38,883 nt of DNA, taken from contig JAQXHF010000079.1 of assembly GCA_029007095.1 (NCBI GenBank), positions 1 to 38,883 of the forward strand, written 5' to 3'. Both the position numbers and the translations under genes were made by a program. The stretch comes from Clostridia bacterium (GTDB taxonomy: Bacteria > Bacillota > Clostridia > Oscillospirales > Acutalibacteraceae). The notes below the pieces were generated by a model that saw only the letters and a program-made list of their open reading frames with translations, did not search any database and was not told the origin of the DNA. This document shows, in pieces, positions 1-10,997 of this stretch (position 1 is its first letter; each line of letters starts with the position of its first letter).

Positions 1-1401
1 GATACCGTCAATTTCAGTTCCGCCGCAGCCTACATAAGCCGGAACAAATTCCTTCAACTGCTTAACAATTCGGTTACCGAATGCAAGACGGAAATGCTCG
101 ATTACATAGTTGTCAAGTTCTTCGATCTTTTTAAGATTTTCATCAGAAACTTTATACTTTGTCTGACACTCTCTGAACATTTCCTCAAGATGCTTATAGC
201 TAAGGTTAAGGTTATCTGTCCACGGTGCGTCAAAATATTTACCCTTACTGTTAAGGTCAATGGGAATAGCACGGTCATAAACCTTATCAGAAACCGCAAA
301 GGTAGAGTCATCGTTATTGATAGTGCCTATGTACCACATATTCTCAGGGAGTTTAAGCTTACCGTCTATGATATGTTTAGGATCGGTAGGCCATACGCTC
401 GGAACAAGTGATACAACCCACTCATCTCGTGACGGCATTTCAAGTATTGAGAGAAGCTCTGCGAAATAATACTCAACACGAGCAATGTTCATCTCGTCAA
501 GTACCGTAATGAATATTTCATCTTTAAATGTAGCTTCATACATTTTTTTGAGAACTTCGGTTTCGTTAAAACGCTTTGTGAATTCGTTAAAGTAACCGAA
601 GATTTCTGTACGGTCACGCCATGACGGCTGAACCGAAGCGATGGTACAGGGATTTTTAAGGAACTTACCCCATGCATAAGCAAGAGAAGTTTTACCTGTA
701 CCGGAAATTCCCTGTAATATTATAAGTCTTGTCGATGCAAAAGCTGAAAGGAACAGACGAATTGTTTTAATCTCATAGAAAAGTCCGAGACGCGAACAAG
801 CATAATTTCGGAACATTTCACATATTTCCGGAAGAGTTATATCATTATCAAAATCAGGAGCAACATAGTTTTCAATTTCAAGATCAACCTGGGTGCATTT
901 GTAGAATCGGCTGTAATCGTCCGCAGTTTTATCCGCTTCACCGCTATCTTCTTTGTTTTCCAGCGTTTCATCTTTTTTATCGCTGTCATCGGTTGTTTCA
1001 TACGGACTCTCGCCCGGCTTCAATCCAAGCTGAGAAACTTTCATTGCAAGTATTTTTTCTTTCTCGGTAGTCAGCTTGATTATCTCTCGGTTAAGATTGC
1101 CGACCTCATTGAGTAATTCTTCCTGATCGACGAGAGTTTTTCTGACTCTTACATACTTCTTTACAAGTACAACTATCAGCACTATCAATGCTGCAAGAAC
1201 AGCAACCGTCGCAATAACGGCAAGTATAGCAAGAATCCAATCAACGGCGGTAAAATCTCCCGCCCAAGATTTGAATATACTGATATATTCCGGTATGTTA
1301 AAGATATTCGCTATACCTAAGCCGATACCTTTGAGAATTCCCCAAACACCCTTTACAAAAAACTGATTAAGGAACTCTGCAATGAATTTTGTTACTGTCA
1401 T
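1..1401 (-). CDS. Membrane-anchored AAA+ ATPase, McrB/dynein-related (AAA_5-like), C-terminus runs off window
   Basis: Read directly on the minus strand; absent from the ORF track because its stop lies outside the window. N-term MTVTKFIAEFLNQFFVKGVWG..., TM segment DWILAILAVIATVAVLAALIVLIVVLVKKY, charged coiled-coil-like linker, Walker A GISGTGKTS, Walker B ITVLDEMN, sensor GTINND, DRA arginine-finger-like motif. Confidence 0.85.
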   Translation of the reverse strand, partial: MTVTKFIAEFLNQFFVKGVWGILKGIGLGIANIFNIPEYISIFKSWAGDFTAVDWILAILAVIATVAVLAALIVLIVVLVKKYVRVRKTLVDQEELLNEVGNLNREIIKLTTEKEKILAMKVSQLGLKPGESPYETTDDSDKKDETLENKEDSGEADKTADDYSRFYKCTQVDLEIENYVAPDFDNDITLPEICEMFRNYACSRLGLFYEIKTIRLFLSAFASTRLIILQGISGTGKTSLAYAWGKFLKNPCTIASVQPSWRDRTEIFGYFNEFTKRFNETEVLKKMYEATFKDEIFITVLDEMNIARVEYYFAELLSILEMPSRDEWVVSLVPSVWPTDPKHIIDGKLKLPENMWYIGTINNDDSTFAVSDKVYDRAIPIDLNSKGKYFDAPWTDNLNLSYKHLEEMFRECQTKYKVSDENLKKIEELDNYVIEHFRLAFGNRIVKQLKEFVPAYVGCGGTEIDGI

Positions 1402-1450
1402 CTTTCAGCCACCCTTTGCTTATCTTCTTGATTTTTATAATAGGAACGAA

Positions 1451-2155
1451 TTACTTTTCGTCGCCGTCCTTCTTTTCCTTTTCCTGCTGCGCCAAGTATT
1501 CTTCTACCGCTCTGCGCTTTTGCTCCTCGCTTATGTCCTCAGCTTTCGCTTCCATAAACATCGCGATCAGCTTATATATCTGCCAGATAAAGAACAGGGC
1601 CAACGGTACGATTATGCAAATCATAAATCCGGTTCTGCTCTGAAGGAACTCCAAAGCCGATCCGAAATTGGAAATCTTTAATCCTTCAAGTGCCTTTCCG
1701 GACTCGTCGTAACCGGAATTAACCTGCTTTGCAATAACTTCATCAGGCAATACCATTACATTATCTTCGGTGCTCATCGCATCTCCCTTTGTAACGAAGC
1801 ACTTGATTGAATTATCATCGTTGTATTCGATATCGTAAATTCTATGGGTATTATAGCTTCTGAAACTTTTTCCCTGTGAATCCGTAAGAACAGTTGAATA
1901 TGTTATAACTTCTCCAACTTTCAGCGTCTGAGGATCTTCAACCTCTTTGGTTATAATCAAATCTCCCGACTCAAAGGTAGGTGCCATTGAATCTGACTGA
2001 ACTGCAAACGGAGTGTATCCAAGGATATTGCCTATTCCCATTTCGGAATTTTTTGAAGTAAAGGTCATAACAGTTATAATGATAGCTATTATGATAATCA
2101 CTATAAGCAATATATCGGAAATAACTCCCAAAACGCTCTTTGCTTTATTATTCAT
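1451..2155 (-). CDS. sipW: SipW-type signal peptidase I (S26B-like)
   Basis: 234 aa; N-terminal TM, catalytic-type motif FAVQSDSMAPTFESGDLIITK, STHRI-like segment SYNTHRIYD, C-terminal TM; adjacent to TasA-like substrates. Confidence 0.85.
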   Translation of the reverse strand: MNNKAKSVLGVISDILLIVIIIIAIIITVMTFTSKNSEMGIGNILGYTPFAVQSDSMAPTFESGDLIITKEVEDPQTLKVGEVITYSTVLTDSQGKSFRSYNTHRIYDIEYNDDNSIKCFVTKGDAMSTEDNVMVLPDEVIAKQVNSGYDESGKALEGLKISNFGSALEFLQSRTGFMICIIVPLALFFIWQIYKLIAMFMEAKAEDISEEQKRRAVEEYLAQQEKEKKDGDEK

Positions 2156-2333
2156 TAAAATTCACTCCTGTTTAATTCTGACTTAAACCGTCATTTTTGA
2201 GCGCCGCTCCGATGCTCAAAAATCGCAGCTTCAATCGAGTTCATGGGAGGCGTTAAAAATTAACGCCATCCCATAATAGTGACGGGCATTCCGCAGGAAT
2301 CGAGTCCTGCGGAAATACGGTTCAAAGAACAAC

Positions 2334-3239
2334 TTAATCGATCGTAAACTGAAGATCAACATTAAGTGTGCCGCCGGCTGCGTCTGAAAGGCAGTCAACA
2401 TCGTTACCTTCCATCCAAACATAAACTCTGATACGGTTTATACCGGCTTCAAGCGGGAACTTCATGGTATCCTTAGTAGTATCAGTTGCCTGAACTTTGG
2501 CTTTACATGTATAAACACCATTTGTTTGCAGAGTATCGCTTCCAACAGTCTGATCCGCAGCAGCAACATTTACATATTTGGTATCAATGTATGTTCCGTT
2601 CTTTGATTCATCAAGGTGAAGTGTTGATGCAGGTTCATACATACTTGAATAATTCGTGGTACCGTTCATTTTTGCCAATGTTTTTGCTGTGGTAGGATCT
2701 GCATCCGAACCGCAGTCAACAATAGCCATTCTCATTGATCTGAGTGCCACTTCATTATCGCCGTCAGGAATTGTGATATCCGAATTCTTCCAATATACGG
2801 TCTGTGCAGTTGCAACTTTAAGGAAAACATCAAATACAACATATCCGCCATCAGCATCGGTAACTTTTGTTGTTGTCAGTTTTCCGGCATCACTCATAGA
2901 TCCTTCAAAGAAAGTCGGGAAAGTGTTTGCACTAACAGTCATATGACTCGAAGACGGCTTTAACTCATCAGGGAAATGATTAGTGTTATCCGCATCGGCA
3001 GCAAATCTTGTTCCGGACTCGCCTTTAAGATCAGACAAAGTGATAGCAGTTGTCCAAGCATTTGTGTTAGCTGAAATCTGAATACCTTCGGGTGATGTAA
3101 CCGTAAGGTTCATTTGCTCAACCGTTGCCTTCTTGGACATTGTGAACCATGCAAATGTCGATGAAGTCAAAACGATCGCAGACACAATAAGCATAGCAAT
3201 TGCTGAAATAAACGCGCGCTTTTTAAATGTCTTTTTCAT
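2334..3239 (-). CDS. TasA/camelysin-like SipW-dependent exported protein
   Basis: Start at MKKTFKKRAFISAI (3239) preferred; signal segment ending SSTFAWFTMSKKA matches SipW-cognate signal peptide pattern (AWFT); followed by sipW. Confidence 0.75.
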   Translation of the reverse strand: MKKTFKKRAFISAIAMLIVSAIVLTSSTFAWFTMSKKATVEQMNLTVTSPEGIQISANTNAWTTAITLSDLKGESGTRFAADADNTNHFPDELKPSSSHMTVSANTFPTFFEGSMSDAGKLTTTKVTDADGGYVVFDVFLKVATAQTVYWKNSDITIPDGDNEVALRSMRMAIVDCGSDADPTTAKTLAKMNGTTNYSSMYEPASTLHLDESKNGTYIDTKYVNVAAADQTVGSDTLQTNGVYTCKAKVQATDTTKDTMKFPLEAGINRIRVYVWMEGNDVDCLSDAAGGTLNVDLQFTID

Positions 3240-3374
3240 TTGTATCTTTACCTCCATAAAGATTTTATGCTTTGGCGACCGTTAACGCGCCGCCAAACGC
3301 ACAAGTGTATATCCTTAAATGTTAACGGTATTTAAGAGAAAGATAAACTTCTGTGGCAATAATATGTATATTGC

Positions 3375-4181
3375 TCAAGAGTTTGCCCCGTCACCGTTCT
3401 CAAGCGAATAGCTGTTAAATGTCATAGACAGTTTAACCTCTCCCTCAAGAATATCGTCAACACATTCGGGATCCCATCCCTCAAGCCAAACGACAACAGT
3501 ATATTTATCTATGTCGCCGACTTTGAAACTGTCGTTTACCGCTTCCATAACTTTTGTGTTGCTAAGGAAGTTTTTATCAACATTGTAGTGTCCGTCATTA
3601 TCTTCAAGCTCGTCGACAGTACCGTGCTTTGGTTTAGCATAGATAGTCGGTTCACCGTTGATATATACCATTACACGCAAAGCCTCGTCCGCGTTCAATG
3701 CTACCGAATCCATCTGAATACTTGCATTGTAACCGACATCGACTTCACCGGCATTTTTAACATAAAATGTATATGCAAGGAACTCCTGACCGTTTGAGCG
3801 GTTGTGAGAGCCGTCAATATCATTAAGATCTTCCGGCAGCCATTCGTATGTACATTCAAGCATATTCTCACATTTCGTTCCAGAAAGAAATCTCGTAGGA
3901 TTTTTAAAATCAGCAGTTTCTGAAAGCGAGATTCCCATATTGAAAGCGTCCTTATTCATCGTCACGGTGAAGTCACCCGCTTTATTAACATACGACGAGC
4001 AAGCAAACATAACCGAGAGGAAAAGCAAGAGGATAACAAGAATAATAACCAATATTCTTATCAAAGCTTCTCTTTTTTTTACCTTTTTTGATTCGGTTTT
4101 GACGCCGTAACGGCTCATTCGGTCGAGCTGTTCGGGATTATCGGAAATCGGCTGCGAATCTTTTTTCTTTTTCTTTGCCAA
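3375..4181 (-). CDS. TasA-like membrane-anchored exported protein (hypothetical)
   Basis: 268 aa; Lys-rich N-term then a single TM (LIRILVIILVILLLFLSVMFACSS), AGDFTVTMN, FYVKNAGEVDVGYN; C-terminal motif VVWLEGWDPECVDDILEGEVKLSMTF parallels the neighbouring TasA-like protein. Confidence 0.6.
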   Translation of the reverse strand: MAKKKKKDSQPISDNPEQLDRMSRYGVKTESKKVKKREALIRILVIILVILLLFLSVMFACSSYVNKAGDFTVTMNKDAFNMGISLSETADFKNPTRFLSGTKCENMLECTYEWLPEDLNDIDGSHNRSNGQEFLAYTFYVKNAGEVDVGYNASIQMDSVALNADEALRVMVYINGEPTIYAKPKHGTVDELEDNDGHYNVDKNFLSNTKVMEAVNDSFKVGDIDKYTVVVWLEGWDPECVDDILEGEVKLSMTFNSYSLENGDGANS

Positions 4182-4200
4182 GCTTAATCCTCCTCCGATC

Positions 4201-4977
4201 TCAGCTTATTTGCTTTTCTTTTATAAATTCTCCGAAATACGGGCCTCTGAATCGGTCTGCGCCCATTTTTTTGAGCAAATCAAAAACTTCTTTTGAATCA
4301 ATGCCGTCAAATGCGCTTTGAACTTCAATTTTCTTACAGAAATCAATAAGGCCCTGCACGGTATTCTGGACTTTTTCATCCGTCAGTATTCCGTCAATCA
4401 AGTCGGAATGGAAACCGATATAATCCACATCATAATGAGTCAAATGTGTAAGCGAGGTATATTCTACTCCGAAATCATCTATCATTATGGTGAATCCGGA
4501 TTCTCTGAGCGCTTTAATATTTTCTAAAACCTGTTCCTTGACAGCTTCCAATATGCTCTCGTTTATAACAAAACATAATTTATCGTGAGCTACCTTATAT
4601 TTGTCTGTTATTTTAAGAACCTGGCTCACAAAATTTTTCTTTGCGATTGTTTTTACGGATATCCATATCATAAGCGAATTTATATCCGCTTCTCTCTGCT
4701 CGCATCTTAATATTGCCTCGCAGGCTTCTTCAACCGCCCAAAGGTTAAGCTGGCACACCTGAGAGCTTTTTTCTGCAACAGGTATAAAAAGCTCCGGTAA
4801 AACAACGCCCATTACCTTGTCATTAATCTGCATGGTCGTTTCGTAATCTATCGCCATATTCAGATGAATGTCAAACACAGGTCTGTAATGAAGCTCAATA
4901 GTTCTCATTCTGCTTTTTGACGGAGAGTCATTATTTTTAGCGGCCATAAGATTCTGTCCCCTCGTATAAAACGGCAA
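4201..4977 (-). CDS. Degenerate EAL-domain protein
   Basis: EAL fold motifs recognisable (HYRPVFDIHLN, MIDDFGVEYTSL, GADRFRGPYFG), but several catalytic motifs are replaced. Confidence 0.75.
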   Translation of the reverse strand: MPFYTRGQNLMAAKNNDSPSKSRMRTIELHYRPVFDIHLNMAIDYETTMQINDKVMGVVLPELFIPVAEKSSQVCQLNLWAVEEACEAILRCEQREADINSLMIWISVKTIAKKNFVSQVLKITDKYKVAHDKLCFVINESILEAVKEQVLENIKALRESGFTIMIDDFGVEYTSLTHLTHYDVDYIGFHSDLIDGILTDEKVQNTVQGLIDFCKKIEVQSAFDGIDSKEVFDLLKKMGADRFRGPYFGEFIKEKQIS

Positions 4978-10330: not shown

Positions 10331-10846
10331 TTATTTAAGCTTCAGCTTTTCACCGAGCTTGACCTTGTATAAGAAAATGAAGGCTATAATGAACTCAGAC
10401 ACAGACATAATTGCAGTCTGCACAAGTCTCGTGATAAACATTTCCTTGTACGGAGTGCCGTAAAGCATGGAAATCCACAGCGTATCAAGGAACTGTCCGA
10501 TTAAAACTCTCCTGATGAGAACGGCGGCAATAATTCTCGGAACCGAGCATTTCTTGTAAAGGAATAATCCGTAAACCAATCCGACCAATGCCGCCGAAAA
10601 GGTGAATCCCGGAAAAAATGCGCCAATCGGGAAAAGTAACGCGCCGATTAAATCCGATATCGACGCAACGACCACGCCGTAAACAGGGCCGAAAAGATAA
10701 GAAACCAACATAACCGGAATGAAAGAAAATCCGATTTTAATGTTGTATAGCTGAATTGACAGCCATCTCGACAGCACTATTTCAAGCGCTATCATAACGG
10801 CTGATACCGCTATTTTTTTCGTTATGTCTTTGCTTTTGTTTGTCAT
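10331..10846 (-). CDS. folT: Folate-family ECF transporter S component
   Basis: Multi-TM; SRWLSIQLYNIKIGFSFIPVMLVSYLFGPVYGVVVASISDLIGALLFPIGAFFPGFTFSA; downstream of a THF riboswitch. Confidence 0.88.
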   Translation of the reverse strand: MTNKSKDITKKIAVSAVMIALEIVLSRWLSIQLYNIKIGFSFIPVMLVSYLFGPVYGVVVASISDLIGALLFPIGAFFPGFTFSAALVGLVYGLFLYKKCSVPRIIAAVLIRRVLIGQFLDTLWISMLYGTPYKEMFITRLVQTAIMSVSEFIIAFIFLYKVKLGEKLKLK

Positions 10847-10900
10847 AAAAAATACCTCCTTACATCCATTGTTGAATAATAAGGAGCGCACTCTCTATTA

Positions 10901-10997
10901 TTCAGCGGGATGCAACGGCTGCACCGCAAGAATTCTTTTCGTCCGACGGACAACTCCCCGTTCCGTCGGCACTTAACGCGCAACCGTCTACTCTGAA
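10901..10997 (-). ncRNA. THF (tetrahydrofolate) riboswitch
   Basis: Minus-strand TTCAGAGTAGACGGTTGCGCGTTAAGTGCCGACGGAACGGGGAGTTGTCCGTCGGACGAAAAG...TGCGGTG...GTTGCATCCCGCTGAA matches recalled THF riboswitch conserved core; P1 TTCAG/CTGAA. Confidence 0.85.

Follow-up and report, generated by a model that had tools for sequence, protein, structure and literature searches.

The sequence under study, hereafter the window, is a stretch of 38,883 nucleotides from a gut-dwelling Clostridia bacterium of the family Acutalibacteraceae (assembly GCA_029007095.1, contig JAQXHF010000079.1). Near its left end lie five minus-strand genes which encode, in the direction of transcription, a degenerate EAL protein, two TasA-like proteins (TasA2 and TasA1), a SipW signal peptidase and a McrB-type AAA+ nucleoside triphosphatase (NTPase) anchored by a transmembrane (TM) helix (Table 1). 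A preliminary description made from the sequence alone had listed five consecutive minus-strand genes of these kinds, and every one of them is present. Its SipW scores 78 bits with TIGR02228 against a cut-off of 51.85, the AAA+ protein matches McrB and has one TM helix, as had been claimed, and degeneracy of the EAL protein was borne out at residue level both in the window protein and across its family. The contig (C79 of this genome, which amounts to 1.85 Mb in 146 contigs) is the entire window, and the AAA+ gene is therefore truncated at the left end. Alignment with relatives placed the start of the EAL gene at ATG 4947 rather than TTG 4977, and that of TasA1 at 3239 rather than 3257. A simple terminator scan returned three chance-level matches, none of them between these genes.

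Table 1. Features of the locus, with coordinates in the window unless another locus is given.
Feature	Position	Strand	Remarks
AAA+ NTPase, TM-anchored, McrB-type	1..1401	-	466 of ~520 residues, C-terminus missing at contig end
AAA+ parts	TM 1162-1239; coiled coil 1024-1146	-	coiled-coil-like segment follows TM
AAA+ motifs	Walker A GISGTGKTS 685-711; Walker B ITVLDEMN 487-510; NxD NNDDSTF 298-318	-	
SipW, ER/archaeal-type signal peptidase I, second TM and cytosolic tail	1451..2155	-	TIGR02228
SipW tail motif KRRAVEEYLAQQ, candidate docking motif	1484..1519	-	up to four repeats in relatives
TasA1-SipW gap, three strong RNA hairpins	2156..2333	-	dG (folding free energy) -68.5 kcal/mol, z -5.9
Conserved covarying hairpin (YGATTT ... 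AAATGAC)	2180..2235	-	~80 nt 5' of sipW start
TasA1, exported TasA-like subunit	2334..3239	-	SipW-type signal, TFAWF at 3144-3158
TasA2, membrane-anchored TasA-like protein	3375..4181	-	basic cytosolic tail, TM 4005-4067, extracellular domain
EAL protein, stand-alone, catalytically degenerate	4201..4947	-	PF00563 E=2e-46
Membrane GGDEF-EAL proteins	L160 14120-16480; L162 3614-5890; L163 12640-14946		directly downstream of SipW/AAA+/DUF2357 genes

A search with the AAA+ protein alone collected 43 loci, and the following counts were taken over those with enough flanking sequence. SipW was found upstream of the AAA+ gene in 37 of 37 testable loci and a TasA-like gene in 36 of 36; an EAL gene was present in 32 of 33. 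Downstream, a gene for a DUF2357 protein followed in 39 of 39, separated from the AAA+ gene by a median of 39 bases. All mapped genes across the loci (320/320) were on the same strand. Thirteen additional loci from an order-wide sample agreed in the linkage to DUF2357 and SipW, and the SipW linkage persisted over AAA+ divergence to about 50% identity. Some loci are closely related, and thinning at 93% identity leaves 34 SipW-linked sequences; in distant loci the TasA-like and EAL labels come from iterated profiles, EAL being confirmed by Pfam in L055 and L059. The five-gene linkage is far beyond chance. Co-localisation, which the preliminary description had named as the check on its proposal, was observed throughout the linked clade, where every testable TM-anchored AAA+ gene adjoins SipW and a TasA-like gene, and nearly always an EAL gene. 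No SipW was found in 19 loci of more distant McrB homologues, so that the linkage is a property of one clade. The AAA+ protein or a near homologue was present in 46 of the 396 genomes of the order sample, and the AAA+ locus in 16 of 18 genomes of the same genus, that of the window included. The genome of the window carries four SipWs over the cut-off, all within the locus, and a genome of the same genus without the AAA+ gene (G017) carries none. Genes flanking the locus are housekeeping, on which ground an origin as a mobile element or defence island was rejected.

Relatives allowed the locus to be followed past the contig edge, where the preliminary description had suggested looking for further partners. 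Their gene order is EAL, TasA2, one to several TasA1 genes, SipW, AAA+ and DUF2357; as a rule the gene for a giant exported protein comes next, and after it additional TasA-like genes and another SipW. In the genome of the window another contig, C4, opens inside the charged tail encoded by a DUF2357 gene, after which come genes for an exported protein of 2412 residues, for TasA-like proteins and for three additional SipWs; the partners left of coordinate 1 would in this way be DUF2357 and the rest of the operon. Synteny indicates that C79 adjoins C4, an adjacency that stays at the level of inference because the N-terminal part of the DUF2357 gene, searched for in this genome, is not assembled. 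On C4 (L073, 8247-11784), three SipW genes alternate with several short TasA-like genes within 4 kb, a pattern as if each peptidase had one substrate. We take the five genes to be the leading third of a probable operon for surface fibres, centred on an McrBC-like NTPase that is anchored in the membrane and belongs to the type named CoCoPALM.

The AAA+ protein matched NCBIfam PRK11331 (E=4e-8), McrB chains in the PDB (E=5e-7) and the PADLOC candidate PDC-M26A (E=1e-35). Its NxD motif, NNDDSTF, was invariant across 22 aligned homologues and reads NMDETTF in the outgroup. A TM helix was found in 55 of 55 SipW-linked homologues, against none of the 19 proteins of the soluble NxD outgroup, and a 99% branch of the tree divides the TM-anchored proteins from that outgroup. 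SipW-linked AAA+ proteins formed a single clade beside NxD relatives, with an SH-aLRT of 88 by a quick method. The partner matched PF09823 (DUF2357, McrC N-terminal) in 29 of 29 cases and ends in a long charged helix, composed in most members of lysine, glutamate and alanine. The DUF2357 tails showed no trace of a nuclease, and the operon proteins scanned gave no nuclease match; when profiles of DUF2357, TasA1 and TasA2 were run against the sequences of the PDB, nothing relevant came back. Three loci (L152, L153 and L154) carry TM-anchored AAA+ genes in tandem around a DUF2357 gene, without SipW, and constitute a sister type; in L152 and L153 the tandem system adjoins a membrane protein with a transglutaminase core. 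In four others (L155, L156, L157 and L158) bigger TM AAA+ proteins of 564-838 amino acids occur with DUF2357 partners and no SipW, the partners in L156 and L158 ending in a CxxCGKxH-like motif.

In the window SipW, Ser56 lies in QSDSMAPT and His104 in NTHRI, an assignment that follows what is known of the family. The cytosolic tails of AAA+-adjacent SipWs carry a motif, [DE]E.K..[AI]I.E[YF]LA.Q, which was present in 53 of 68 SipW-class proteins, with a maximum of four copies per tail, in 39 of 55 loci, and in tandem repeats in relatives such as L056 and L159. It was matched 68 times, compared with 1.4 times in shuffled tails. Since the pattern was chosen after inspecting the tails, SipWs from loci in which no AAA+ gene was seen are the fair control, and none of these 38 carried it; three of them are downstream-type SipWs from G001, a genome in which the locus is probably truncated. 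We read the motif as a candidate for docking.

TasA1 combines a SipW-type signal (TFAWF) with a predicted beta-sandwich, and further subunits besides TasA1 also carry such signals. TasA2 has one TM helix and a predicted extracellular beta domain, and is a candidate for the base of the fibre. The best fold match of the TasA1 model, a weak one (E 0.013, probability 0.54), was the archaeal thread Saci_0406 (7pnb), and the 19th was bundling pili (7ueg); both are strand-complemented filaments. Models of the TasA/camelysin family (PF12389) matched neither TasA1 nor TasA2, and a downstream subunit in L073 gave a camelysin/TasA match only at E=0.08. The description of two TasA-like exported proteins is in this way sustained by the SipW-type signal, the beta-sandwich and the weak fold match, but not by any TasA/camelysin model.

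Compared with MorA, the window EAL protein retains E, E, D and D and has lost N, K, the E of EGVE and Q, so that the N, K, E and Q residues of active EAL phosphodiesterases are missing. Across the family N, K, E and Q were lost in 34, 33, 34 and 32 of 34 members, respectively, the N column being alignment-dependent, and divergent members additionally lose the first E and the second D. Membrane GGDEF-EAL proteins with all catalytic EAL residues intact were found in three loci (Table 1), which makes a connection with cyclic diguanosine monophosphate (c-di-GMP) plausible without proving it.

The gap between TasA1 and SipW folds far more stably than its shuffles in relatives too, with z values from -4.7 to -9.3. 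One hairpin, with an invariant GATTT/AAATGAC core, recurs about 80 nucleotides before sipW and sometimes before TasA1. In 11 of its 16 pairs both partners had changed, whereas shuffles gave 7.5, and 2 of 500 shuffles reached the observed value. A covariance model found a single strong copy in the genome of the window, within the locus; of the 17 other genomes of the genus, 14 had at least one strong copy, each on the AAA+-bearing contig. No known Rfam family reached its gathering score at the locus, hairpin included. Control by a c-di-GMP riboswitch was rejected, the Rfam scan showing no riboswitch near the locus. Elsewhere in the window, a tetrahydrofolate riboswitch (10901-10997, minus strand) lies 5' of the gene for a folate ECF transporter S component (10331-10891).

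The preliminary description did not recognise this combination of genes. Its core had been named: CoCoPALM was introduced in 2024, in eLife, in a few sentences that leave it to later work, and the text describes it as NxD McrB-type GTPases with an FtsB-like TM/coiled-coil domain, adjoining signal peptidases (PMC11090510). Among the papers searched, that one and its preprint are alone in treating CoCoPALM. The locus is assigned to CoCoPALM because the features compared are all there: an NxD rather than NxxD motif in a McrB-type AAA+ protein; a TM helix and coiled coil fused to it, FtsB homology itself lying outside the comparison; a coiled-coil McrC homologue alongside in all testable loci, in the genome of the window as its tail end only; and an adjacent signal-peptidase gene. 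What remains of the novelty is the rest of the set, since TasA-like genes, a degenerate EAL protein, a giant exported protein, additional SipWs, a tail motif on SipW and a cis RNA are all missing from the main text (PMC11090510); the EAL protein, the TasA-like set, the tail motif and the RNA element are additions. The tail motif is new relative to the CoCoPALM description, and the covarying hairpin and the family-wide loss of EAL catalytic residues are likewise new here.

Other known systems share parts of the locus. CoCoNuT/McrBC type IV restriction systems (McrB 6ut6, 6hz4) have the AAA+ core, the DUF2357 partner and, in the CoCoNuT branch, NxD; by contrast, this locus has no nuclease or nucleic-acid specificity domain, and has a membrane anchor and surface-fibre neighbours. 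A CoCoNuT whose McrC lacks the nuclease always has a different one encoded close by (PMC11090510), whereas here the DUF2357 tails are charged helices and the scanned operon proteins include none. The tapA-sipW-tasA operon of B. subtilis and sipW-calY of B. cereus resemble the locus in SipW, in substrates with SipW-type signals and in a membrane-linked accessory subunit, but contain no NTPase or EAL gene; the locus has the SipW-family peptidase of matrix-fibre operons without substrates that TasA/camelysin models detect, and unlinked SipWs lack the tail motif. FimX-PilZ-PilB offers an analogy only, a dead EAL protein beside a filament-linked hexameric NTPase; the locus has no type IV pilin or PilZ protein, and the filament and NTPase families are unrelated.

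From these observations combined we infer, as the most likely mechanism and at about even odds, that SipW tails recruit an McrBC-like NTPase in the membrane, which takes information from the pseudo-EAL protein and controls or powers production of a SipW-dependent fibre. By analogy with McrBC, the DUF2357 protein would form a stalk in the AAA+ ring and stimulate NTP hydrolysis. SipW tails would dock on the cytosolic AAA+/DUF2357 complex and so couple the NTPase to the maturation of subunits. The pseudo-EAL protein may be a c-di-GMP receptor or scaffold that licenses the NTPase in the way that FimX licenses PilB, the motor of the pilus (PMC8389850), and on the same analogy the complex would drive or gate the release of TasA-like subunits and their assembly on a TasA2 base. 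The ratio in which subunits and SipW are expressed is probably determined by the hairpins. A role in export, assembly or remodelling with a possible response to c-di-GMP, as originally proposed, appears favoured over defence, and the whole suggests a restriction-type motor re-used to control or power fibre building. In its fullest form, an McrBC engine turned into an NTP-driven, c-di-GMP-licensed Gram-positive membrane machine that builds strand-complemented fibres via SipW-tail docking repeats, and hence a new kind of fibre secretion, the proposal is put forward tentatively.

Several observations weigh against this proposal. A fold search of the DUF2357 model against the PDB gave no significant match to McrC or any other structure. 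Tandem relatives keep the TM-AAA+/DUF2357 pair without SipW, and the NTPase core is therefore not tied to fibres everywhere. The tail motif was absent from 16 of 55 loci. The arginine of ExxxR is Q in the window EAL protein, and c-di-GMP binding by the degenerate protein cannot be judged from its sequence. B. subtilis TasA fibres form by strand exchange with the help of TapA, in an account that never mentions ATP (PMC10151520), so that a motor is not obviously needed.

That the EAL protein is a structural scaffold with c-di-GMP uninvolved, which would leave the proposed fibre machine intact apart from licensing, has somewhat less than an even chance: the family-wide loss of N, K, catalytic E and Q and the further losses in divergent members speak for it, but FimX is an example of a degenerate EAL protein that binds c-di-GMP and does not cleave it, and intact GGDEF-EAL membrane proteins occur in three loci. 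Absence of activity in the FimX EAL is documented (PMC8389850). Rather than building fibres, the AAA+/DUF2357 complex might police export, docking on SipW tails to gate signal-peptide cleavage or to extract cleaved signal peptides and stalled precursors from the membrane. AAA+ proteins often act as unfoldases, the ring is membrane-anchored, and the motif sits on SipW and not on the subunits; yet no protease or substrate-binding domain was seen and SipW homologues elsewhere function without such a partner, which makes policing rather unlikely. An anti-phage role, in which a relative of CoCoNuT/type IV restriction guards the fibres that phages would use as receptors or has RNA as its target, is improbable. 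Its basis is that the closest characterised relatives are NxD McrBC defence systems (PMC11090510), and that PDC-M26A is matched; unlike the CoCoNuTs described there, the scanned operon proteins have no nuclease, the flanking genes are housekeeping, the locus occurs in 16 of 18 genomes of the genus, and the envelope is indicated both by the TM anchor and by the motif on the SipW tail. Finally, that the pair is a passenger of a fibre operon functioning without it, as TasA/SipW operons do in the unlinked controls and in B. subtilis, is very improbable given the unbroken SipW and DUF2357 linkage over AAA+ divergence to about 50% identity and the clade-specific tail motif.

The SipW tail motif and the covarying hairpin provide small, specific handles for experiments on the proposed NTPase-assisted fibre production. 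The current view is that fibres of the TasA type need no NTPase for their assembly; if the proposal is true, a conserved McrBC-like motor at their operons would be a defence enzyme re-used for the envelope, and the little-explored CoCoPALM class would gain a concrete, testable function.

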